Program-made: the position numbers and the translations under genes | The notes under the pieces: model-generated | Databases searched by the model: none | Seen by the model: the letters and a program-made list of their open reading frames with translations, nothing else | Told to the model about the DNA's origin: nothing | Shown: positions 1,387-14,287 of the stretch, in pieces | How the letters are laid out: every line of letters starts with the position of its first letter | Position numbering within the stretch: the first letter of the stretch is position 1 | Assembly (NCBI GenBank): GCA_020346185.1 | Contig: CP070775.1 | Coordinates: 1,053,092-1,098,769, forward strand | Reading direction: 5' to 3' | Length of the DNA: 45,678 nucleotides | From: Betaproteobacteria bacterium | Lineage (GTDB): Bacteria; Pseudomonadota; Gammaproteobacteria; Burkholderiales; Eutrophovitaceae

Positions 1387-1824
1387 ATGGTACAGAATTC
1401 GACAGACCCTGTTGGCTGGGAGCACTTTGATCACGACGCCGACGTGGGTGTGCGTGGCATTGGCGTGACTCAGGCCCAGGCTTTCGAGCAAGCAGCTTTG
1501 GCTCTCACTTCCATCGTGACGCAAATAGAGTCCGTCGAGCCGCGTCAGCGAATCGACATCAGCGCTGAAAACGGTGACCCCGAATTGTTGTTTGTCGACT
1601 GGCTTGACGCGCTGATTTTCGAAATGGCAACTCGCAGGATGTTGTTTAGCAGATACAAAGTAGATATTGAGGGCGAGCGCTTGAGCGCCCGCGCGTGGGG
1701 CGAGCCGGTCGATGTCAATCGACACCAACCCGCCGTGGAAATCAAGGGCGCGACACTGACTGAACTTAAGGTAGAAGAACAGGACGAGGGGCAATGGCTT
1801 GCTCAGTGCGTCGTGGATGTATGA
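1387..1824 (+). CDS. Archease (RtcB RNA ligase activator)
   Basis: The 145-residue protein has the archease fold signature: an N-terminal WEHFDHDADVGVRG stretch with the acidic metal-binding residues, ELLFVDWLDALIFE in the middle, and a C-terminal strand with the conserved Asp of VVDV. Archease helps RtcB form the RtcB-GMP intermediate and broadens its nucleotide use. The gene sits directly before rtcB: its stop codon ends 1 nt before the preferred rtcB ATG, so translation is probably coupled. A divergent promoter shared with the CBS gene is likely in the 160 bases upstream, but no consensus site is convincing. Length and context agree, so the call is secure. Confidence 0.9.
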   Translation: MVQNSTDPVGWEHFDHDADVGVRGIGVTQAQAFEQAALALTSIVTQIESVEPRQRIDISAENGDPELLFVDWLDALIFEMATRRMLFSRYKVDIEGERLSARAWGEPVDVNRHQPAVEIKGATLTELKVEEQDEGQWLAQCVVDV

Positions 1825-1825
1825 G

Positions 1826-3253
1826 ATGGATCTGAGCCAGCTGATTCGTCGCGACGTTTACGAATGGGAAATCCCCATGCGCGGCGCCATGCGCGTGCCG
1901 GGCATTATCTACGCGAGCCAAGATTTGATTCGCGCCATGGATGACAAAGTGTTGGAGCAAACCGCCAATGTTGCAATGTTGCCAGGGATTGTTTCCGCTT
2001 CGTACGCTATGCCGGATGCGCATTGGGGTTACGGCTTTCCGATCGGCGGCGTTGCCGCATTCGACGCAGAGGAGGGCGGCGTTGTCTCGGCTGGTGGCGT
2101 CGGTTTCGATATCTCGTGTGGCGTGCGCTGTTTGCATACGGGCGTTGATCTAGATGAACTCAAACAAAAACAGGTGGTATTGGCTGACGGTTTATACCGC
2201 GGGATTCCGGCTGGTGTCGGAAGCACCGGGAAAATTTCGTTGTCGGACCGCGAAATGACTGAGATGTTGACGGGAGGCGCAGCATGGGCCATTGCGCAAG
2301 GTTATGGGCGAGCCGAAGATCTTGCCAGAATCGAGGAAAACGGCAGGATGCAGGGAGCAGATCCGAAAGCCGTTTCGGCCCACGCCCGGCGGCGCCAGCG
2401 TGATGAAATGGGCACGCTTGGCTCAGGAAACCACTATCTGGAAGTGCAAATCGTCAGCGAAATCTTCGATAAGAAGATCGCCAACGTTTTTGCCATTGCC
2501 GAAGGAGATGTGGTTGTCAGTATTCATTGCGGCTCGCGCGGGCTTGGTCATCAAATCGGTACTGAGTACCTGAAAGAAATGGCACAGTCCGCAGCCGGTC
2601 TTGGCATCGCGCTTCCCGATCGGGAATTGGCCTGCGCGCCGATTCATTCACCACTTGCCCAACGTTATCTCGGCGCCATGCGGTCGGCAATCAACTGCGC
2701 ACTGGCGAATCGACAGGTCATCACTCATTTGACGCGGCAAGTTTTTTCCGAAGTATTCGGGCGCGAACTCCAACTACCCTTGCTCTATGACGTGTCGCAC
2801 AACACCTGCAAGGTGGAGGAGCACCTGGTTGGCGGCACGAAGATGAACTTGCACGTACACCGCAAAGGCGCGACACGCGCATTTGGCTTGGACCACCCCG
2901 ACTTGCCGCAAGAGCTCAAAGCGGCCGGACAGCCCGTATTGATCGGCGGCAGCATGGGAACGGCGTCGTACGTACTTGCCGGCACCGGCATGGAGATCGC
3001 CTTTGGCTCGGCCTGCCATGGCGCCGGGCGGGCGATGAGCCGCCACGCAGCGAAGAAGCGTTGGCAGGGTCGAAAGTTGGTCGACCAGCTGGCCGGTCGG
3101 GGCATTCTGATTCGCAGTCCGTCGATGCGCGGTGTCGCCGAAGAAGCGCCCGGTGCCTATAAGGACGTCAGCTCGGTGGTCGACGCAGCGCAAGAGGCCG
3201 GTCTGGCGAGAGTTGTGGCCAAGCTGCTGCCATTGGTCTGCGTCAAGGGCTAA
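1826..3253 (+). CDS. rtcB: RNA-splicing ligase RtcB
   Basis: RtcB joins RNA ends carrying 2',3'-cyclic phosphate or 3'-phosphate to 5'-OH, using GTP and manganese. The family signatures are all present: GVGFDISCGVR with the metal-binding Asp and Cys, HCGSRGLGHQ, DVSHNTCKVEEH, and the guanylylation site near FGSACHGAGRAMSR, whose His accepts GMP. The length of 475 residues fits the family. I prefer the ATG at 1826 (MDLSQL), which aligns with relatives and follows the archease stop; an in-frame ATG at 1817 is the alternative. The pairing with archease, without RtcA or the sigma-54 regulator RtcR nearby, differs from the enterobacterial rtcBA arrangement. Likely role: RNA repair or tRNA ligation after stress cleavage. 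Confidence 0.95.
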   Translation: MDLSQLIRRDVYEWEIPMRGAMRVPGIIYASQDLIRAMDDKVLEQTANVAMLPGIVSASYAMPDAHWGYGFPIGGVAAFDAEEGGVVSAGGVGFDISCGVRCLHTGVDLDELKQKQVVLADGLYRGIPAGVGSTGKISLSDREMTEMLTGGAAWAIAQGYGRAEDLARIEENGRMQGADPKAVSAHARRRQRDEMGTLGSGNHYLEVQIVSEIFDKKIANVFAIAEGDVVVSIHCGSRGLGHQIGTEYLKEMAQSAAGLGIALPDRELACAPIHSPLAQRYLGAMRSAINCALANRQVITHLTRQVFSEVFGRELQLPLLYDVSHNTCKVEEHLVGGTKMNLHVHRKGATRAFGLDHPDLPQELKAAGQPVLIGGSMGTASYVLAGTGMEIAFGSACHGAGRAMSRHAAKKRWQGRKLVDQLAGRGILIRSPSMRGVAEEAPGAYKDVSSVVDAAQEAGLARVVAKLLPLVCVKG

Positions 3254-4648: not shown

Positions 4649-6121
4649 ATGCGTATGGGCATGCGTAGGGATAGTCGGCTCAGGGTCCTCTTTGCGGTGT
4701 CTGAGCTGGCGCCGTACGTCAAGATCGGTGCGCTCGCCGATACGGCCTCGGCGTTGCCGGCGGCACTCGCCGGACTTGGCGTCGATGTTCGCCTGTTGGT
4801 GCCAGGATACCCGCAAGTTATTGACGGGCTGAAAAGTCGCGGCAGAGCCGCAGTGCTACCGAGCCTGCCCGGCATGCCACCGGCGCAGCTGCTGGCGTCC
4901 AAGCACCCGACGGGTGTCCAATTGTTAGTGATCGCTTGTGATATCTATAACCGGCCTGGCGCGCCGTACCAGGATGCCGCCGGCCAGGATTGGCCAGATA
5001 ACGCACCGCGTTTTGGCCTGTTGTCATACGTGGCAGCGTTGTTGTCCACCGGCGCCTCGCCATTCCCGTGGGTTCCCGAGCTGCTCCATTGTAATGACTG
5101 GCAAACAGGGCTTGCCCCGGCATACCTGCGATACGTGGACTCAACGCGGGCCAGGACACTAATAACGGTCCACCATCTTGCCGATCAAGGGCTGTTCGAC
5201 GCTGCTTTTGCCGATCGGGTTGGTTTGCCCGCCAATGCGATGTCTGCCGGTGGCGTCGAGTTCAACGGGCAACTGGGTTTTCTGAAGTCAGGCCTGCAGT
5301 TTGCGGACCGCATCACCACCGTCAGCCCGACATATGCAAGAGAGATACAGACTGCGCCGCTCGGCATGGGATTGGAAGACCTGCTTGCACGTCGCAGCGA
5401 CGTGGTGTCGGGAATTCTCAACGGCATCGATACCGATACTTGGGACCCGGACAATGATCCCTATATCGAGCGCTACTACAATGCCGGAAGGCTCGCGCAC
5501 AAGGAGGACAACCGCCGGGCGCTGCGGGCCCGGTTGGGATTGCCTGACCGGCCGGAGGCACCGTTATTCGCGATGGCCGGGCGGTTGCTTGATCGCAAGG
5601 GTGTCGACGTATTGGCCGAGGTAGCTCCCCGCCTAGTAAACATTCCGGCACAGCTGGTCGTTCTCGGCTCCGGCGACGAGCGCCATGAAGCGCGCTTCTT
5701 GTCCTTGGCGCAAGAATATCCCGATCAGGTTTCGGTTAAGATTGGCTACGACGAAACACTGATGCACCAGATCGAGGCCGGCGCCGATATTGCGCTCATT
5801 CCGTCCCGTTACGAGCCGTGCGGCGTGAACCAGATGTACAGCCAGCGCTACGGCACGCCACCTGTGGTCCATGCGACCGGCGGGCTGACAGACTCGGTGC
5901 TCAATGTGACGCCGAAGACACTGGCGGCGAAAACGGCGACTGGCTTTGCGTTCTCTCCACTGACCGGCACCAACCTGCTGCAGACATGCAAGCGTGCCGC
6001 AGACCTGTTTCGCAATCGCCGCAGCTGGCGCCAGTTGCAGAAAAACGGCATGGCGCAAGATTTCTCATGGCATAGTACGGCAGAGAAGTACTTGGAGTTG
6101 TACCGGAACTTATTGCGCTAG
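4649..6121 (+). CDS. glgA: Glycogen/starch synthase (GT5 family), divergent
   Basis: The protein is a 490-residue GT-B glycosyltransferase of the GlgA type, which extends alpha-1,4-glucan from ADP-glucose (or UDP-glucose). Visible signatures are the N-terminal LFAVSELAPYVKIGALAD, TVHHLADQGLF near residue 175, and the C-terminal SRYEPCGVNQMY with the catalytic-domain Glu, followed by GTPPVVHATGGLTDSV. Several usually invariant positions differ: the KTGGLAD loop reads KIGALAD (Lys25 kept), and the HN of the second motif is HH. Donor or acceptor preference may therefore differ. No glgB, glgC or glgP is nearby. Three in-frame ATGs (4649, 4655, 4661) compete and none has a strong ribosome-binding site. 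It is followed after 111 nt by the larA-like gene. Confidence 0.85.
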   Translation: MRMGMRRDSRLRVLFAVSELAPYVKIGALADTASALPAALAGLGVDVRLLVPGYPQVIDGLKSRGRAAVLPSLPGMPPAQLLASKHPTGVQLLVIACDIYNRPGAPYQDAAGQDWPDNAPRFGLLSYVAALLSTGASPFPWVPELLHCNDWQTGLAPAYLRYVDSTRARTLITVHHLADQGLFDAAFADRVGLPANAMSAGGVEFNGQLGFLKSGLQFADRITTVSPTYAREIQTAPLGMGLEDLLARRSDVVSGILNGIDTDTWDPDNDPYIERYYNAGRLAHKEDNRRALRARLGLPDRPEAPLFAMAGRLLDRKGVDVLAEVAPRLVNIPAQLVVLGSGDERHEARFLSLAQEYPDQVSVKIGYDETLMHQIEAGADIALIPSRYEPCGVNQMYSQRYGTPPVVHATGGLTDSVLNVTPKTLAAKTATGFAFSPLTGTNLLQTCKRAADLFRNRRSWRQLQKNGMAQDFSWHSTAEKYLELYRNLLR

Positions 6122-6232
6122 GCTTGGCTGGCTGGGCTGAATCGGGGCCAATCGGTACAATCCGAATCTTGTATCTGCTCGCTTTGGCCGGTGTTATTCA
6201 CAGGTGAAGCAAGAATATTAGGAGGTGAAGAA

Positions 6233-7558
6233 ATGATCGGCGATCGCATCGACGTCAATATTGCCGGCGGTCTGGACATTCCGTTGCCGCGCATGTTTCA
6301 CGTTCGTCAGAAATTCCAGATGCCCCGCCTTGACAGCGTCAGCACTGCCGTAATCGAAGAGTTCAAGAAGCCGCAAGTCCGTGACAAGGTCAAGCCGGGA
6401 ATGACCATAGCGGTCGGCGTTGGGTCGCGTGGCGTCAACAACATCGCCGAGTGTGCCAAAGCGGTGATTGCTGAATTGAAAGCACTCGGTGCCAAGCCGG
6501 TGATCTTTCCGGCGATGGGCAGCCATGGTGGCGCGACCGCAGAGGGCCAGAAGGAAGTCCTCGATGGCTACGGTGTGACCGAGGAGTTCGTCGGTTGCCC
6601 GGTGAAGTCGAATATGGAGGTAGTGGAGATCGCCAAGGCGGACGACGGAATGCCTGTTTACCTCGACAAGCATGCTGCGGGCGCAGACGCTATCGCGCTG
6701 ATCTGCCGCGTCAAACCGCACACCAATTTCCGAGCGCCGATCGAGTCGGGCATCGTCAAGATGCTGACGATTGGCATGGGCAAAATTATCGGTGCCACAA
6801 CACTGCATACCTATGGCATGGATATGTTCGGTGAGCTGCTGCCCAAGACGGCGCGGATCATCATGGACAAGAAGAACTTCCTATTCGGCGTTGGCATGGT
6901 AGAAAACGCCGCAGATGAAACTGCCATTATCGAAGTCGTTCCGCAGGAGAAAGTGTTCGAGCGAGAGCCGCTATTGCAGGCCAGAGCGAAAGAACTGATG
7001 CCTCGGCTGCAGTTCGACGAGATCGATGTACTGGTGGTAGAGAAGATCGGCAAGAACATTTCCGGCTCCGGAATGGATCCAAACATTACCGGCCGCAACT
7101 GCCGGTTTATCGAATGGGACGTGAAGCCGTTGGTCAAGAAGATCGCCGTGCTTGGCCTGACGCCCGAGACGCACGGTAACGCCACCGGGCTTGGCGCCGC
7201 CGACGTGATCACCATGAAGTTGTACAAGGATATTGATATCGGCAAGACCTACGCCAATATCATCACATCGACCTATCTTGACGGCGGCGCGATCCCGATC
7301 ATCATGAATACTGATCAGGAAGCAATCCAGCTCGCAGTCAAAACTGTTGTGCGGGTCAAGCCAGAGGACACCAAGATTGTCCGCATCGCGACGACGCTTG
7401 ACGTGGTGGACATCCACGTATCGGAGCCGATGTTGCCATTTATCAAGGCAAATCCGTCGATGTTTGAAATTGTTGGCGACTCGGAGCCTTTCAAGTTCGA
7501 CGCCAACGGTAACTTGTATCCGATGCTGGCGCCGCAGCGCGCGCATGCGCCGGCTTAG
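6233..7558 (+). CDS. LarA-superfamily nickel-pincer racemase/epimerase, substrate unknown
   Basis: This 441-residue protein belongs to the lactate racemase (LarA/DUF2088) superfamily, whose members use the nickel-pincer nucleotide to racemise or epimerise 2-hydroxy acids by hydride transfer. Residues matching those of Lactobacillus plantarum LarA are visible: His98 in MGSHGG, His163 in KPHTNF, Lys176 in GIVKML (cofactor attachment) and His192 in TTLHTYG (nickel ligand). The Lys-to-His spacing of 16 equals that of LarA Lys184-His200. The start at 6233 follows an excellent AGGAGGTGA ribosome-binding site. The cofactor-synthesis genes larC, larE and larB follow directly. Sequence outside the active site differs from characterised lactate racemases as I recall them, so D/L-lactate cannot be assumed; another 2-hydroxy acid is as likely. 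A weak -10 (TACAAT, 6156-6161) lies upstream. Confidence 0.85.
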   Translation: MIGDRIDVNIAGGLDIPLPRMFHVRQKFQMPRLDSVSTAVIEEFKKPQVRDKVKPGMTIAVGVGSRGVNNIAECAKAVIAELKALGAKPVIFPAMGSHGGATAEGQKEVLDGYGVTEEFVGCPVKSNMEVVEIAKADDGMPVYLDKHAAGADAIALICRVKPHTNFRAPIESGIVKMLTIGMGKIIGATTLHTYGMDMFGELLPKTARIIMDKKNFLFGVGMVENAADETAIIEVVPQEKVFEREPLLQARAKELMPRLQFDEIDVLVVEKIGKNISGSGMDPNITGRNCRFIEWDVKPLVKKIAVLGLTPETHGNATGLGAADVITMKLYKDIDIGKTYANIITSTYLDGGAIPIIMNTDQEAIQLAVKTVVRVKPEDTKIVRIATTLDVVDIHVSEPMLPFIKANPSMFEIVGDSEPFKFDANGNLYPMLAPQRAHAPA

Positions 7559-7636: not shown

Positions 7637-8836
7637 ATGCATATTCACCTGGACGCAATCGGCGGCATTGCCGGCGACATGTTCATTGCCGCCGTGCTCG
7701 ATGCATTCCCTGATCTGCGCGATGGCACGCTCGAAGCGATACAAGCGGCGGGTTTGCCCGCCGATGTCCAGCTGTCCGTAAGGGAACACACTGATCATGC
7801 GCTGACGGGTTTGCGTTTCATCGTCGACGAGAAACAACGTCTAAACGCGCCCGGGCACAACCATACCCCGTTCAGCGATATCCGAAGCATGCTCGCGGAA
7901 GCGCCGCTTGAAACCTCGGTCAAGTCCACCGCGACTGGCATCTTCACCCGGGTGGCTGAGGCTGAGGCGAAAGTGCATGGCCGGTCAGTCGATACGGTCA
8001 GTTTTCATGAGCTCGGCGAATGGGATTCAGTTGCCGACATCGTCGGTGCCGCGTTCCTGATTAGTCGGCTCAATGCGCGCTGGACGGTCGGAGCCTTGCC
8101 GCAGGGCAGTGGCAGGGTGAAGACGGCACACGGCTATCTGCCAGTGCCGACGCCTGCAACGGTGTTGTTGTTGGAAGGCTTCGATTTTTGCGATGATGGT
8201 GTTACCGGCGAACGGGTTACTCCGACTGGCGCAGCGATACTCAATTATCTTGAAGCAAACCAGCCGCGCGAGCGTAAGGCGCGCCGTTTGCTTCGCAACG
8301 GCAGCGGCTTCGGAACCAGAAACTTGCCCGGCATGAGCAACGTGCTGCGGCTGCTGGCATTTGAAGCGGCTGAGGCGGTAACCGAAACTGACCGGGTTGC
8401 CGAACTGGCTTTCGAGATTGACGACCAAACGCCAGAGGATCTTGCCATCGGACTGGATAAGCTGCGGGCGTATCCCGCAGTGCTGGATGTGCTGCAGGCG
8501 GCGGTATTTGCCAAGAAGGGGCGCATCGCGGTTCAGGTGCAAGTGTTGGCAGAACCAAGTGATCTTGAGAATGTTCTGAACTTGTGTTTCGCTGAAACGA
8601 CGACGTTGGGAATTCGTCACCAGATCGTCGAGCGTCGCAAGTTACACCGCAGGCATAGTGCAGTCGAAGCCGAGGGCCGCACAGTACGCATCAAGGTTGC
8701 CGAACGTCCCGTTGGTTCTACTGTAAAGGCGGAGGCAGACGATCTGTCAAAAGTCAAAGGTGACCGCGGTGACCGTGAACGGATCCGACGAGTTGTTGAG
8801 CAGGTGTCGCGAGCCCAGGAGGAAGATGAAGCGTGA
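7637..8836 (+). CDS. larC: Nickel-pincer cofactor biosynthesis protein LarC
   Basis: LarC is the CTP-dependent cyclometallase that inserts nickel into the dithiocarboxylated pyridinium mononucleotide, the last step of NPN synthesis. The 399-residue protein has the N-terminal signature DAIGGIAGDM (residues 6-15), a central VSFHELGEWDSVADIVGAA and the TPTGAAIL motif near 195. It is a single continuous frame; in L. plantarum the protein is made from larC1/larC2 by ribosomal frameshifting, which is not needed here. Its TGA overlaps the larE GTG start by 4 nt (GTGA), so larC and larE are translationally coupled. Start ATG at 7637 (MHIHLDAIGG) fits the family. Confidence 0.95.
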   Translation: MHIHLDAIGGIAGDMFIAAVLDAFPDLRDGTLEAIQAAGLPADVQLSVREHTDHALTGLRFIVDEKQRLNAPGHNHTPFSDIRSMLAEAPLETSVKSTATGIFTRVAEAEAKVHGRSVDTVSFHELGEWDSVADIVGAAFLISRLNARWTVGALPQGSGRVKTAHGYLPVPTPATVLLLEGFDFCDDGVTGERVTPTGAAILNYLEANQPRERKARRLLRNGSGFGTRNLPGMSNVLRLLAFEAAEAVTETDRVAELAFEIDDQTPEDLAIGLDKLRAYPAVLDVLQAAVFAKKGRIAVQVQVLAEPSDLENVLNLCFAETTTLGIRHQIVERRKLHRRHSAVEAEGRTVRIKVAERPVGSTVKAEADDLSKVKGDRGDRERIRRVVEQVSRAQEEDEA

Positions 8837-9645
8837 ATGCCCCGGTCGACGCCCTGTCAAGAATTGTTGACCAATTGCCGGAGGTGGCAGTCGCGGTCAG
8901 TGGTGGCGTCGACAGCCTGACGCTCGCCACCGTAATCCACAGCAGACATGTAGTGCGCTCGACTATGTTTCATGCCGTATCGCCGGCAGTGCCAGAAGAA
9001 GCGACGGAGCGCGTCAGGATTCTTGCAAAGAAACACGACTGGTTGTTGCGCATCATCGATGCTGGGGAGTTTGCCGATAGGGAGTATCGTGCCAATCCGG
9101 TGAATCGCTGTTTCTATTGCAAGACCAATCTTTACGGTGCAATCGCGCCGCTCACTAAAGCGCAGATAGTGTCCGGCACGAACCTTGATGATCTGGGCGA
9201 GTATCGACCCGGGCTGCAAGCGGCCAAGCACCACGCCGTGCGCCATCCGTTCGTTGAGGCCGGTATTGACAAGGCTGGCGTACGTCTGTTGGCGCGGCAC
9301 CTTGGTTTGGGCGAGATCTCGGAACTGCCCGCCGCCCCCTGCCTGTCAAGCCGCATCGAGACTGGTATTGCAATCGATCCATCGATACTCAAACTGGTGC
9401 ATCAAACCGAAAAAGTTGTTGCAGCCAGACTGCATCCACAAACAGTCCGCTGCCGGGTGCGGGTGAACGGGATTGTAATCGAGCTCGACAAGGGTACGCT
9501 CGATTTGCTGGACCAGTTACAGCGCGATGAATTGGCACGCCATGTCGCGACGCTGTTCCACGATGCCGGGTTCGATTACCGCGTTTCCTTCGCGCCGTAT
9601 CGCGTTGGCAGTGCATTTGTTCACCCGGTCCACATGAACGTCTGA
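8833..9645 (+). CDS. larE: Nickel-pincer cofactor sulfur transferase LarE
   Basis: LarE is a PP-loop ATP pyrophosphatase that adenylates the dicarboxylated intermediate and converts its carboxylates to thiocarboxylates. The ATP-binding loop is VSGGVDSLTLA (about residues 22-32). Three cysteines stand out: Cys93 and Cys96 in NRCFYCKT, and Cys170 in APCLSSR. The last matches the sacrificial sulfur-donor cysteine of L. plantarum LarE, while the extra pair matches the set that ligates a [4Fe-4S] cluster in the Thermotoga-type LarE. It is therefore inferred to be the cluster-dependent, catalytic form. The GTG start at 8833 overlaps the larC stop. larB begins 31 nt downstream. 270 residues is normal for the family. 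Confidence 0.95.
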   Translation: MNAPVDALSRIVDQLPEVAVAVSGGVDSLTLATVIHSRHVVRSTMFHAVSPAVPEEATERVRILAKKHDWLLRIIDAGEFADREYRANPVNRCFYCKTNLYGAIAPLTKAQIVSGTNLDDLGEYRPGLQAAKHHAVRHPFVEAGIDKAGVRLLARHLGLGEISELPAAPCLSSRIETGIAIDPSILKLVHQTEKVVAARLHPQTVRCRVRVNGIVIELDKGTLDLLDQLQRDELARHVATLFHDAGFDYRVSFAPYRVGSAFVHPVHMNV

Positions 9646-9676: not shown

Positions 9677-10342
9677 ATGACTCTGCATAAAGACATCATG
9701 CTTGACTTTGCGCGCGAGGCACGCACGGGCCTTGACGAGGCTGTGTTTTGCGCAGGTAAATCGGTTGCGCATATCATTGAAATTCTGCGCCAAGTTGAAA
9801 GCCGTAACGGTCGGATTCTGCTGACCAGGCTCGATCAGGAACAATTTTCTGCGTTACCGGAGTCGCAGCAAGAGCAAATCGATTATGAAGCGCTTTCACG
9901 CACCGGATATTTCTCGGGCCCGAATCCCACCGTCGAAACAAAACGGGTCGCCGTCGTGGCGGCCGGTACGTCTGACGTGGTAGTGGCACGCGAAGCCGCA
10001 CGCACGCTAGCCTATTATGGTCAATCACCCGCCGAAATTACCGATGTTGGTGTGGCGGGTCTTTGGCGATTGCTCGAACGGTTGGAAGAAATTCGCACCA
10101 TGAAAGTTGTAATCGCAGTCGCTGGCATGGACGCGGCTTTGCCGACGGTGATCGGCGGCTTACTCAGCGCGCCGGTGATTGGTGTGCCGACATCAGTCGG
10201 TTACGGAGCGTCCGAGGGAGGGCAAACGGCGCTCAAGGCGATGCTTGCGAGCTGTTCTCCCGGTTTGACGGTAACCAACATCGACAATGGCTACGGTGCT
10301 GCTTGCGCCGCGCTGCGCATCCTTCGCCTGTCTGTGCAGTGA
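9677..10342 (+). CDS. larB: Nickel-pincer cofactor biosynthesis protein LarB
   Basis: LarB starts NPN synthesis by carboxylating the pyridinium ring of nicotinic acid adenine dinucleotide and releasing AMP. The protein (221 residues) has a variable N-terminal domain and a C-terminal PurE-like (AIR carboxylase) domain: GTSDVVVAREAA near 97-108, VAGMDAALPTVIGG near 148-161, PTSVGYGASEGG near 171-182, and NIDNGYGAACAA ending in the probable catalytic Cys210. It is the last gene of the cluster, so the gene order is larA-like, C, E, B rather than the common B, C, E. No clear ribosome-binding site precedes the ATG. It converges with the DUF1614 gene and no terminator is evident in the 57-base gap. 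Confidence 0.93.
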   Translation: MTLHKDIMLDFAREARTGLDEAVFCAGKSVAHIIEILRQVESRNGRILLTRLDQEQFSALPESQQEQIDYEALSRTGYFSGPNPTVETKRVAVVAAGTSDVVVAREAARTLAYYGQSPAEITDVGVAGLWRLLERLEEIRTMKVVIAVAGMDAALPTVIGGLLSAPVIGVPTSVGYGASEGGQTALKAMLASCSPGLTVTNIDNGYGAACAALRILRLSVQ

Positions 10343-11291: not shown

Positions 11292-11837
11292 CTAGAAAAC
11301 GTTAATCCAGCTGCCGGCATGGAAGTAGGTCGTCTCGGTCGTCTCTCCCACCGGACCATCTTCGATACCATCGTGATCGAATGCAGGCAGCCGCTCTGTG
11401 GCCTGGTCGCGAATAGCCCGTTTTTTCAACACAAACGGCGAAACGGCGTGAATCATTCGGTAGGCGTCCGCAGGAAACTTACGTATCTGCTGCGCGCCTT
11501 GCTTTCTACCGTCGGGGTAGACGATGATGCTCATGTCATCTTCGACGATACACAGTACGGCAACGTCTTGACTTCCTGCGTGCAGAAAGGCGCCGCGTAT
11601 GACATTATGTCGGCCATCCCATTTGCTGAACATCGGTATACGGCAACTGCGCTCACGCAAGTCGGCTACGAGATGGTTGCTTAGCCCTCGGACCTTAACT
11701 GGCGACAGCAGTTTTAAGTCTGGCCAGTCCTTTTGCGCCTGTTCGAGATTGTGCTGTGCGAGTACTTCGCGAACCGATCCAGTCAGCGAAAATAGTGTTG
11801 CCAGCACAATCTTCAGAGCGGTTGTGGCTGGTCTCAT
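11292..11837 (-). CDS. Exported hypothetical protein in the egtB operon
   Basis: The 181-residue protein begins with a probable Sec signal peptide (a basic start, then IVLATLFSLTGS, with a likely cleavage site near VLAQ at 26-29). The mature part is mostly soluble with a beta-rich middle (VAVLCIVEDDMSIIVYPDG) and two cysteines, one in RERSCRIP and one in VLCIV, that could form a disulfide. I do not recognise a domain. Its ATG overlaps the egtB stop by 4 nt (11834-11837), so it is translated together with egtB. A periplasmic role connected with ergothioneine is possible only by context. Confidence 0.75.
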   Translation of the reverse strand: MRPATTALKIVLATLFSLTGSVREVLAQHNLEQAQKDWPDLKLLSPVKVRGLSNHLVADLRERSCRIPMFSKWDGRHNVIRGAFLHAGSQDVAVLCIVEDDMSIIVYPDGRKQGAQQIRKFPADAYRMIHAVSPFVLKKRAIRDQATERLPAFDHDGIEDGPVGETTETTYFHAGSWINVF

Positions 11838-13105
11838 GCGCCCGCCAGTCGCAGCCCCTTGAATTGCCAGCGTTCATGCGGGTAGAAGAAATTGCGGTAG
11901 CTCGAACGTATATGCGAGCGCGAAGTCACGCATGAACCACCGCGCAACACCTGTTGATTGATCATGAACTTGCCGTTGTACTCGCCCAGCGCTCCACGTT
12001 GTGCTCGGTATCCAGGGTACGGGCTGTAGGCACTGGCAGTCCATTGCCAGACGTCACCAAAAAACGATGTTTCGCCAGAGCAAGGTTGCGGATGAAGCCG
12101 ACTGTTGTCAAAGAAATTACCGCCCTGTTGGTGTTCGCTGGCGGCAATTTCCCACTCGGTTTCGGTTGGCAAGCGTTTTCCCGCCCACCTGGCAAAGGCA
12201 TCCGCTTCGTAGTAGCTAACATGGCACACCGGCTCCGCTTGGTTGATCTCGTGCATGCCAGATAAACTGAACTGCCACCATGTTTTGTCTCGTTCTTCCC
12301 AATACAGTGGTGCAGACCAGGAACGCTTGCATACCGTCTGCCAGCCATCGGACAACCACAGCGTTGGTTCGCTGTAGCCACCGTCTTCGAGAAATTCGAG
12401 AAACTCGCCATTGCTGACAGGACGTGAAGCGATGCGAAATGGCTCGACATAGCTACGATGACGCGGTATTTCATTATCGAAAGCGAATCCGCAACCGCCG
12501 TGACCCGTATCGTAGACTCCCGCCGGGTACGCCAGCCACTCGATATCGGCTGCGACGCCCGCTGGAGCGGGGCTGCGTTCGCGATAGGTCGGTCGAAGCG
12601 GATTACACCAGAACAGATGCTTGATATCGGTCAACAACAGTTCCTGGTGCTGTTGTTCGTGATGCAAACCTAGCGTGCAGCGCGCGGCGATGTCTTGTGC
12701 ATGTGAATGAGATGTGTCGCCTAGCAAGGCGGCAAGCTCACTATCGACGTGACGGCGATAGTCCAGGATCGACGCAAAAGACGGGCGGGTCAGAAGCCCC
12801 CGATCCTTGCGTGGATAGAACGAGCCAACCGACTCATAGTAGGAATTGAACAATAAAACAAATTCGTCTTGAAAGGACTTGTATCCTGAAACAAACGGCT
12901 GCAGCACGAATGTCTCAAAGAACCAGGTCGTATGCGCAAGATGCCATTTGGCAGGGCTGGTCTCCGGTGCGCTTTGAACGACGCAGTCTTCGGGTTCAAG
13001 CGGATCGCAAAGCGACACCGTCGTCGCCCGCACCCGCATCAGGTTCTCAAGCAGTGATGCCGGTGTTTCCAGTCCGCGCGTTGTAGCCATCGCAGGTGTC
13101 AACAT
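11834..13105 (-). CDS. egtB: Ergothioneine biosynthesis sulfoxide synthase EgtB
   Basis: EgtB is a non-haem iron enzyme that uses O2 to join a thiol to C2 of hercynine. The 423-residue protein has an N-terminal DinB-like iron-binding domain with His58 in WHLAHTTWFFE and the pair His149/His153 in LHHEQQHQE, then a formylglycine-generating-enzyme-like domain with RLPTETEWEIAA, GDVWQWTASAY and RGGSCVTS. No egtA or egtC is present nearby, suggesting that the thiol donor may be cysteine rather than gamma-glutamylcysteine, as in some other EgtB subgroups; this is inference. The start at 13105 has GAGGT about 6 nt upstream. It is divergent from egtD across 189 nt and coupled to an exported protein. 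Confidence 0.95.
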   Translation of the reverse strand: MLTPAMATTRGLETPASLLENLMRVRATTVSLCDPLEPEDCVVQSAPETSPAKWHLAHTTWFFETFVLQPFVSGYKSFQDEFVLLFNSYYESVGSFYPRKDRGLLTRPSFASILDYRRHVDSELAALLGDTSHSHAQDIAARCTLGLHHEQQHQELLLTDIKHLFWCNPLRPTYRERSPAPAGVAADIEWLAYPAGVYDTGHGGCGFAFDNEIPRHRSYVEPFRIASRPVSNGEFLEFLEDGGYSEPTLWLSDGWQTVCKRSWSAPLYWEERDKTWWQFSLSGMHEINQAEPVCHVSYYEADAFARWAGKRLPTETEWEIAASEHQQGGNFFDNSRLHPQPCSGETSFFGDVWQWTASAYSPYPGYRAQRGALGEYNGKFMINQQVLRGGSCVTSRSHIRSSYRNFFYPHERWQFKGLRLAGA

Positions 13106-13294
13106 GCCTACCTCGCCATACTTGTCGTTGCAATCAGCATCAGTTTAATCCGCGCAGCATGCATGCGCCAAATTTGCGGCCGTACGGGACAACATCCACG
13201 AATTGGAATTATCCATGGTGATTTCTTTTTTGCGGTTTCGGGAAAATTCAAAACCGGTTAGGGTTATGCTTGCTCACAACCGATGGAGTATTTC

Positions 13295-14287
13295 ATGAAA
13301 ACATCGGAGAGAAAGAATCCCGATGTAGCACCAGACAATTTCCGCTTTGTTTCCCTCGGTGAAGGTGGAGATGTTGATTTTGACGAAGTGATTGTTGGCT
13401 TGCAGCAGACGCCGAAGTCGGTCTCGCCGAAGTTCCTCTACGATGCGCGTGGCAGCGAATTGTTCAATGCCATCTGTACCACCGAAGCGTATTATCCGAC
13501 TCGCACCGAGCGTGGGATCTATGAAAGCCAGGCCGCTGCGATTGCCGCTGAGGTTGGCCCGGAGGCGACCATCATCGAGTTCGGCCCGGGCGACATGTCA
13601 AAGATTCGCCTGTTGCTGGAGCAGCTACGGCCGCAACAGTACATCGGAGTGGATGTTTCGGCGGCGCAACTCGAGGACGCCGGACCGGTTCTGGCGGCCG
13701 ACTTTCCCTGGTTGGAGGTATTAGCAATATGCGGTGATTTTGGCCCTTCGCGGGTGCTCGAACAATATCTGCCGAACGACGCCAAACGTGTGGCGTTCTT
13801 TCCCGGCTCCACCATTGGCAACTTCGACCCCGATTTCGCACAGCAGTTTTTGAAGGGGCTGCGCGATATGCTGGGGACGAATGGTGCGGCCATTGTCGGG
13901 GTCGATCTGCAGAAGCCGGCGGCGGTGCTTGAAACCGCCTATAACGATCCTCAGGGCTATACACGTGCATTTAACCTGAATCTGTTGACACGCCTTAATC
14001 GTGAGCTGGGTGCCGATTTTGACGAGCGACGCTTCCGTCACAAAGCATATTACAATGAGCAGCTTGGCCGGGTTGAGATGCATCTGGTGAGTGTCATCGA
14101 GCAACAGGTGCGAATCGGCGGACAAACAGTTCGCTTCCAGCCTGGTGAAACGATTCACACGGAAAACTCCTGGAAGTACACGCGCGATGGATTCGCGCAG
14201 CTAGCACTGAATGCCGACCTCCGTGTTTTGCGTTTTTTTACCGACGAGCACAGCTGGTTCGGAGTGTTCGTCCTTGCCGTCGAATAG
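13295..14287 (+). CDS. egtD: L-histidine N-alpha-methyltransferase EgtD
   Basis: EgtD trimethylates the amino group of histidine with SAM to give hercynine, the substrate of EgtB. Signatures in this 330-residue protein are SPKFLYDARGSELFNAI, EAYYPTRTE (histidine pocket Tyr), IIEFGPGDMSKIRLLL (SAM-binding loop), FFPGSTIGNF with the conserved Asn, and IHTENSWKYT, which carries the Glu and Ser that contact histidine. I chose the ATG at 13295 because GGAG lies 6 nt upstream; an ATG 12 nt earlier is in frame. The gene is divergent from egtB, so one regulatory region probably controls both halves of the pathway. The pathway needs a C-S lyase (EgtE) that is not in the window. Confidence 0.95.
   Translation: MKTSERKNPDVAPDNFRFVSLGEGGDVDFDEVIVGLQQTPKSVSPKFLYDARGSELFNAICTTEAYYPTRTERGIYESQAAAIAAEVGPEATIIEFGPGDMSKIRLLLEQLRPQQYIGVDVSAAQLEDAGPVLAADFPWLEVLAICGDFGPSRVLEQYLPNDAKRVAFFPGSTIGNFDPDFAQQFLKGLRDMLGTNGAAIVGVDLQKPAAVLETAYNDPQGYTRAFNLNLLTRLNRELGADFDERRFRHKAYYNEQLGRVEMHLVSVIEQQVRIGGQTVRFQPGETIHTENSWKYTRDGFAQLALNADLRVLRFFTDEHSWFGVFVLAVE

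Follow-up and report, generated by a model that had tools for sequence, protein, structure and literature searches.

A gene that retains the active-site residues of lactate racemase (LarA) in an otherwise divergent sequence raises two questions: does its product work with the nickel-pincer nucleotide (NPN), and on which acid does it act? The initial annotation of the 45,678-nucleotide stretch of DNA analysed here (the window) had answered the first with a working NPN enzyme and left the second open. Altogether our analysis leads us to favor, with moderate confidence, a model in which the window protein is an NPN-dependent C2-epimerase or isomerase of sugar acids that belongs to group 22 of the LarA superfamily.

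A group 22 gene beside larC, larE and larB

The larA-like gene lies at 6233..7558 on the + strand and encodes 441 amino acids. Its open reading frame ends at 7558 and could begin at a GTG at 6191 or an ATG at 6233. We prefer the ATG because a Shine-Dalgarno-like AGGAGGTGA, read directly from the sequence, stands at 6220..6228 on the + strand and because the betaproteobacterial relatives start with the residue encoded at 6233; the longer GTG form is the less likely alternative. Assignment of the gene follows from matches to two models. NCBIfam NF052515, "nickel pincer cofactor-dependent isomerase, group 22", is matched at 523.1 bits (cut-off 400) over profile positions 1-389 of 392, and Pfam Lar_N, the sole Pfam domain listed for the protein, is matched weakly at 25.3 bits (cut-off 23.3). 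The lactate racemase equivalog NF033504 gave no match at E<=0.01. Judged by these profiles, the window protein is a member of a named, uncharacterised LarA group; group 22 itself was already known as an NCBIfam family, to which this protein is an addition. The group number of NF052515 presumably follows the numbering of Desguin et al. 2020.

The NF052515 entry gives no function. Published activities of the superfamily include those on lactate, malate, 2-hydroxyglutarate, phenyllactate, gluconate and others. In the main text of either activity survey (PMC7583248, PMC11770544) we saw none ascribed to group 22: neither contains "group 22", "G22" or "LarAH22", we saw no tested enzyme assigned to the group, and it is absent from the 13 LarAHs of the activity table in PMC7583248. 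Two tested Sporomusa termitida enzymes, LarAH62 and LarAH66, either of which might be the plasmid-borne group 22 protein of that species, are given without accession in the main text of PMC11770544. A literature search over titles and the starts of abstracts found no paper that assigns a function to the group.

Three genes for the cofactor follow on the + strand, each matched above its cut-off: larC (nickel insertion; 7637..8836; TIGR00299, 171 bits, and NF052512, 106.3 bits), with its LarC1 and LarC2 parts in one open reading frame; larE (sulfur transferase; 8833..9645; TIGR00268, 231.7 bits), whose first 4 bases overlap the end of larC; and larB (NPN biosynthesis; 9677..10342; NF033503, 270.2 bits). 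The association extends to other genomes, with LarB and LarC each found in 28 of the 28 group 22 carriers searched (LarC above cut-off in 27). On the other side, 111 bases upstream of the group 22 gene, lies glgA (glycogen synthase; 4649..6121, + strand; NF001899, 560.6 bits, cut-off 459). Of the 25 related loci (L004-L028, some with little upstream DNA), 16 have glgA directly before the group 22 gene, and in eight of the other nine glgA was undetected in the available DNA; L027 starts inside the group 22 gene. We know of no functional link between glgA and the group 22 gene. A promoter scan gave one site, fewer than the shuffle mean of 2.6, and a terminator scan gave 10, more than the 5.8 of shuffles; neither was used.

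Two further features of the window were recorded. At 1387-3253 an archease-like open reading frame, which falls below the cut-off of its NCBIfam "hypothetical protein" model (116 bits, cut-off 126), overlaps an RtcB-family open reading frame, all of whose NCBIfam matches fall below their cut-offs. Divergent egtB and egtD genes (ergothioneine biosynthesis), both above the NCBIfam cut-off, lie at 11834-14287.

Active-site residues and predicted fold

Sequence searches of the PDB, with the protein (phmmer) and with a 47-member profile, returned no LarA entry, and the residue mapping was therefore routed through LarA-type proteins encoded in the genomes. The alignment comprised 47 group 22 proteins: the window protein, those of 22 of the 25 related loci (L016, L026 and L027 omitted) and 24 from genome and plasmid loci, the other members being 36-94% identical to the window protein. 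A scan of viral contigs for additional sequences to deepen it returned no relative. Compared by hhalign with seven LarA-type proteins, the 47 proteins scored 44.95 (E 5.9e-5) at a probability of only 65%; the maximum over 200 column shuffles was 27.1.

This profile-profile alignment pairs R66, H98, H163, K176 and H192 with R72, H106, H173, K183 and H199 of the LarA-type protein from the same genome, which we equated by motif with R75, H108, H174, K184 and H200 of L. plantarum LarA in the numbering used in the text of PMC7583248 and PMC11770544. On the + strand, Arg66 (6428..6430) would thus be the equivalent of Arg75, which contacts the NPN phosphate or the substrate carboxylate; His98 (6524..6526) and His163 (6719..6721) the equivalents of the catalytic His108 and His174; Lys176 (6758..6760) that of the NPN-linked Lys184; and His192 (6806..6808) that of the nickel ligand His200. 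None of the five varies among the 47 group 22 proteins, and H98, H163 and H192 are the only invariant histidines in the alignment. The initial annotation had matched the same three histidines and the lysine to LarA, and the alignment reproduces its pairings. Its spacings are confirmed as well: Lys176 and His192 are 16 residues apart, as in LarA, in all 47 proteins, and His98 and His163 are 65 apart, against 66 in LarA (65 in 42 proteins, 66 in three and 64 in two). A point absent from it is that His163 and Lys176 are separated by 13 residues in 47 of 47 proteins, compared with 10 in LarA. Spacing by itself is modest evidence, since 63 of 5000 shuffled versions of the protein also contain a His/His/Lys/His set with loosely similar spacing; homology is the stronger argument. 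The invariant Lys184 of the window protein was considered as the NPN lysine and rejected, as hhalign places Lys176 on LarA Lys184 and the distance from Lys176 to His192 is that of LarA.

The loops had been described as unlike those of lactate racemase, and the alignment agrees: the stretch after His163 is three residues longer and T-N replaces the F-F of LarA. These small polar residues are T164 in 45 of the 47 proteins and N165 in 29. According to the text of PMC7583248, the residues after the second histidine are F-F in LarA and E-S in the gluconate epimerase GntE2.

Superposition on the LarA structure, which the initial annotation had proposed, was run as a fold match of the N-terminal half. 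An AlphaFold2 model built from 26 sequences (the window protein plus a single protein per locus for the 25 related loci, that of L027 being partial) has a mean pLDDT of 62 and is good in its N-terminal half only; a single-sequence model was discarded at a pLDDT of 35. Means over ten-residue blocks are 64-98 for residues 31-250, except for 46 at 161-170, where residues 163-170, His163 among them, fall below 50; most of residues 261-390 lie at about 25-47, and the blocks of 391-420 at 52-70. A Foldseek search of the PDB with the 26-sequence model found 18 chains at E<=0.001, every one from a LarA-family protein. When the Foldseek matches were re-examined with VIA-align 2, the Z scores were 18.9-21.5 for 12 LarA-family entries (209-229 residues, rmsd 2.5-3.0) and 6.3 for the next entry; the unrelated nucleotide-binding folds that VIA returned at Z of about 6 were set aside. 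Because of these matches, and the gap between 18.9-21.5 and 6.3, we conclude that the NPN-binding N-terminal half, as modelled, is a LarA fold.

These data bear on whether the protein uses the cofactor at all. It could instead be a DUF362-like or degenerate relative that is not an NPN enzyme, and the "DUF362 domain-containing" label carried by haloarchaeal members and the weak Lar_N score of 25.3 bits would fit such a protein. We consider this very improbable: the NPN ligands are invariant, the N-terminal half has the LarA fold, larC, larE and larB adjoin the gene in the window, LarB and LarC accompany it in every carrier genome searched, and a Pfam scan of the window protein gives Lar_N and nothing else. 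Binding of NPN by the window protein is, from its conserved residues, very probable. Of the initial claim of a working NPN enzyme, NPN binding and an active site with two histidines are thus retained as very likely, on the five invariant residues, the N-terminal fold and the downstream larC, larE and larB; the four residues on which it had been based are insufficient alone, Asp72 is not kept and no counterpart of Lys298 was found.

Two further LarA residues, Asp72 and Lys298, deserve attention. Asp72 is listed as catalytic in the text of PMC7583248 and touches the NPN ribose according to that of PMC12611868. In the hhalign alignment it stands opposite a gap, and none of the 47 sequences has an Asp at the nearest columns, 62 and 63, which hold G/T/A and V/C/A/L/G, respectively. 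Since Asp72 is absent, membership in the LarA superfamily rests on the group 22 model; the other NPN features that we looked for were found. As described in PMC11851776, Lys298 of Isosphaera LarA holds the substrate carboxylate together with Gln295, Arg73 and two histidines. A search of the C-terminal half yielded no counterpart of this lysine, which in LarA lies on helix 11 of the C-terminal domain, and 90 of 100 shuffles reached the real hhalign score of that half against the LarA-type proteins. K274 and R288 are invariant there in the 47 sequences, and either might stand in for Lys298.

The absence of Asp72 and of an identified Lys298 contact leads us to consider an NPN-binding enzyme that uses hydride transfer for some other reaction, such as an internal redox isomerisation. 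The gap opposite Asp72, together with a C-terminal domain that lacks profile similarity to LarA, is compatible with such chemistry, and Desguin et al. raise the idea, in the text of PMC7583248, that groups without some of the catalytic residues might run another hydride-mediated reaction. However, the two catalytic histidines are invariant, as are the NPN ligands, which argues that two-sided acid/base chemistry has been retained, and K274 and R288 could replace Lys298. We regard a different reaction as quite unlikely and, by analogy with LarA, inversion at C2 as likely.

Sugar-acid genes in the neighborhood of group 22 genes

The initial annotation was right to leave the exact acid open, but the family already has a name and the gene context points to sugar acids, not lactate. 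In a sample of 300 genomes from the same order, the L-arabinonate dehydratase model NF009559 is matched above cut-off in 24 of the 26 group 22 carriers and in 49 of the 274 other genomes (Fisher 1.5e-14), and by genus in 7 of 7 carrier genera against 27 of 127 others (p 4e-5), an association that is not independent of phylogeny. All 26 carriers were confirmed in both searches, and the 274 non-carriers are assumed to be the same in both. The two carriers without a match above cut-off, G620 and G543, have weaker or partial ones. Among the matches listed, 14 of the 26 carriers have the dehydratase and group 22 genes on one contig and no more than 15 kb apart (the partial match of G543 included), five of these close pairs being 0.26-0.27 kb apart; likewise among the matches listed, the two share a contig at 58 to 1414 kb in four carriers, and eight have no same-contig pair.

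In the genome of the window itself the dehydratase gene, of the IlvD/Edd type and located at L104:9513-11237, is 1.4 Mb from the group 22 gene. In the same-genus genome G528 the arabinonate-dehydratase gene lies 7.3 kb from the group 22 gene, and one was therefore expected shortly before the window; it is absent from the open reading frames of at least 150 amino acids in the available part of the preceding 8.5 kb. An RraA-like gene directly follows the dehydratase in this genome and is one gene away from it in a same-genus genome. The dehydratase of locus L017 exceeds the cut-off of the L-arabinonate dehydratase model, and its closest PDB entries include one named L-arabinonate dehydratase; the Rhizobium L-arabinonate dehydratase is described in PMC11316719 as working best on D-fuconate, D-galactonate and L-arabinonate.

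Sugar-acid genes recur on plasmids. A tblastn search of plasmid records returned 113, mainly from marine alphaproteobacteria and haloarchaea and some from Bacillota, from which 18 loci were picked by hand, including two from Pseudosulfitobacter pseudonitzschiae and two plasmids of one Halocatena strain. Nine of the 18 carry an annotated gene of an acid-sugar dehydratase type (IlvD/Edd, UxaA-type, mandelate-racemase-type or mannonate dehydratase), two a uronate isomerase (one annotated, one found by tblastn on an unannotated record) and one 2-keto-3-deoxy sugar-acid enzymes. The remaining six, all haloarchaeal, have no dehydratase, uronate isomerase or 2-keto-3-deoxy sugar-acid enzymes; DUF4147 (glycerate-kinase-like) genes occur in four of them, glycoside hydrolase family 88 in two and LUD-domain genes in one. 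The gene immediately upstream of the group 22 gene is of the altronate/galactarate-dehydratase type in Sulfitobacter, Loktanella and Pseudosulfitobacter; in Sporomusa the group 22 gene is directly followed by two UxaA-family genes, and two haloarchaeal loci contain a mannonate dehydratase. The Paenibacillus locus reads uxaC, group 22 gene, SDR, larE, larB, larC, with D-mannonate oxidoreductase as the best NCBIfam match of the SDR (267 bits, just below the cut-off of 281); a Niallia locus likewise has uxaC, and an SDR gene next to the group 22 gene. Single mandelate-racemase-type neighbors mean little, because such genes are common (16 in the genome of the window), and a tblastn survey over 50 loci is descriptive and not a test, because its query families were picked after the same loci had been seen and duplicates were included.

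Two haloarchaeal plasmids show arrangements of their own. In that of Haladaptatus halobius (L108:7959-10641) two adjoining "DUF362 domain-containing" genes, the first of which matches the group 22 query, are followed by a mannonate dehydratase gene. In that of Salinigranum marinum (L109, 7953-11064) nikR, encoding a nickel-responsive regulator, is the third gene downstream of the group 22 gene, whose own "DUF362 domain-containing" annotation looks like a mislabel.

Gene neighbors of another kind raise the possibility that the enzyme uses NPN to racemise a small 2-hydroxyacid such as lactate, glycerate or malate, with the sugar-acid genes incidental; glycerate would then be the best candidate. 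DUF4147 genes lie within about 1.3 kb of the group 22 gene in four of the 18 plasmid loci, one of them reaching 247 bits against glycerate 2-kinase models, whose cut-off is 550. In Haloarcula the group 22 gene adjoins LUD-domain genes, whose family includes lactate-utilisation proteins. LarA-type enzymes able to use glycerate are described in the text of PMC11770544. The genome of the window, like L075, L076 and L085, also has a LarA-type protein beside its second group 22 copy, however, and the best PDB match of this protein is the broad-spectrum Isosphaera LarA (lactate racemase model 343.7, below the cut-off of 460), so that the genome may have an enzyme for small acids already. Furthermore, glycerate kinase also serves a lower step of sugar-acid breakdown, the residues that follow His163 are small and polar, and the dehydratase neighbors recur in separate phyla. 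We therefore hold a small-acid racemase to be unlikely and, because of the gene context, consider sugar acids the rather likely class of substrate.

Proposed reaction and relation to known enzymes

In the scenario that we envision, the nickel-pincer nucleotide is synthesised by the LarB, LarE and LarC encoded in this gene run and would be tethered to Lys176, with its nickel bound by His192 and its phosphate by Arg66. As in LarA, His98 and His163 would flank the substrate and exchange roles as acid and base toward the C2 hydroxyl, one removing its proton and the other returning it. The cofactor would meanwhile store the C2 hydride, and the outcome would be inversion of C2. The substrate would most likely be a sugar acid, an aldonate or related 2,3-dihydroxy acid, and the enzyme could supply the C2 epimer that acid-sugar dehydratases can use; its likely partner in its own order is an IlvD/Edd enzyme of the L-arabinonate-dehydratase type. 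Because NPN binding, C2 inversion and the choice of sugar acids are not independent claims, our confidence in the combined statement is only a little below that in the substrate class. Counted against this model are the 1.4 Mb that separate the dehydratase in the genome of the window, glgA as the local upstream neighbor, the six dehydratase-free plasmid loci, the absence of Asp72 and of an identified Lys298 counterpart, a C-terminal half that lacks profile similarity to LarA and is mostly modelled at low pLDDT, and the hhalign probability of 65%.

Comparison with enzymes of known structure places these features in context. The LarA enzymes of L. plantarum (5HUQ, 6C1W) and Isosphaera pallida (broad-spectrum; 9EIA) have the same N-terminal fold (Z 19.4-21.2) and share the equivalents of R75, H108, H174, K184 and H200 with the window protein, for which a common dependence on LarB, LarC and LarE may be supposed. 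In contrast to LarA, the window protein has three more residues between His163 and Lys176, no Asp72, small polar residues after the second histidine, a C-terminal half unrelated by profile and different gene neighbors. With the D-gluconate 2-epimerase GntE (groups 19/20; T. maritima GntE2, 4NAR) it shares the fold of the N-terminal half (Z 18.9) and small polar residues after the second catalytic histidine, although it belongs to a different group and neither phmmer nor profile search matched it to 4NAR. The context of the Paenibacillus relative, with its uronate isomerase and mannonate-oxidoreductase-like gene, resembles the pathway proposed for GntE2, a route from mannonate to gluconate set out for Thermotoga GntE in the texts of PMC7583248 and PMC6978723. 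The single-histidine LarA homologues (9Q3J, 9Q3K), for which the authors propose a carbohydrate gene context in the text of PMC12611868, likewise share the N-terminal fold (Z 20.9), and in both cases the C-terminal domain departs from that of LarA. They have an Asn at the second catalytic position and a Lys in place of Arg75 and keep the Asp, whereas the window protein has His163 and Arg66 at these positions but no such Asp.

What is new here is that gene context narrows the substrate, and that a conserved cofactor half contrasts with a substrate half that is not recognisable. The context yields a short list of testable substrates, namely the C2 epimers of the acids used by the associated dehydratases, and, if the model is correct, the protein would provide a nickel-pincer step, previously unassigned, in sugar-acid catabolism. 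No solved structure is within sequence reach of the protein, and a structure would therefore show the same cofactor half coupled to a new pocket. More tentatively, group 22 could be a separate NPN class that joins the conserved NPN half to a substrate half of other descent or extreme divergence, without Asp72 and probably without Lys298, and that epimerises sugar acids at C2 for unrelated dehydratase families in bacteria and haloarchaea; we regard this broader idea as possible but doubtful.

Group 22 occurs in beta- and alphaproteobacteria, Bacillota and haloarchaea. It was found in 3 of 398 genomes of a phylum sample, the genome of the window included, and in 26 of the 300 genomes of the order sample, 24 of which have two copies. 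The genome of the window is one with two: copy A is the window gene, and copy B (C1:222078-223244), 61% identical to it, matches NF052515 with 520 bits. Among 33 short loci drawn from the phylum and order sample matches, each of the 31 from the same order is closer either to copy A or to copy B. Copy B adjoins the LarA-type gene, and two enolase-superfamily genes lie within 8 kb of it. Copy B and the LarA-type gene occupy G000:C1:222078-226000 (L074:8968-11870), and because the same pair recurs in L075, L076 and L085, group 22 and LarA-type NPN proteins may work together.
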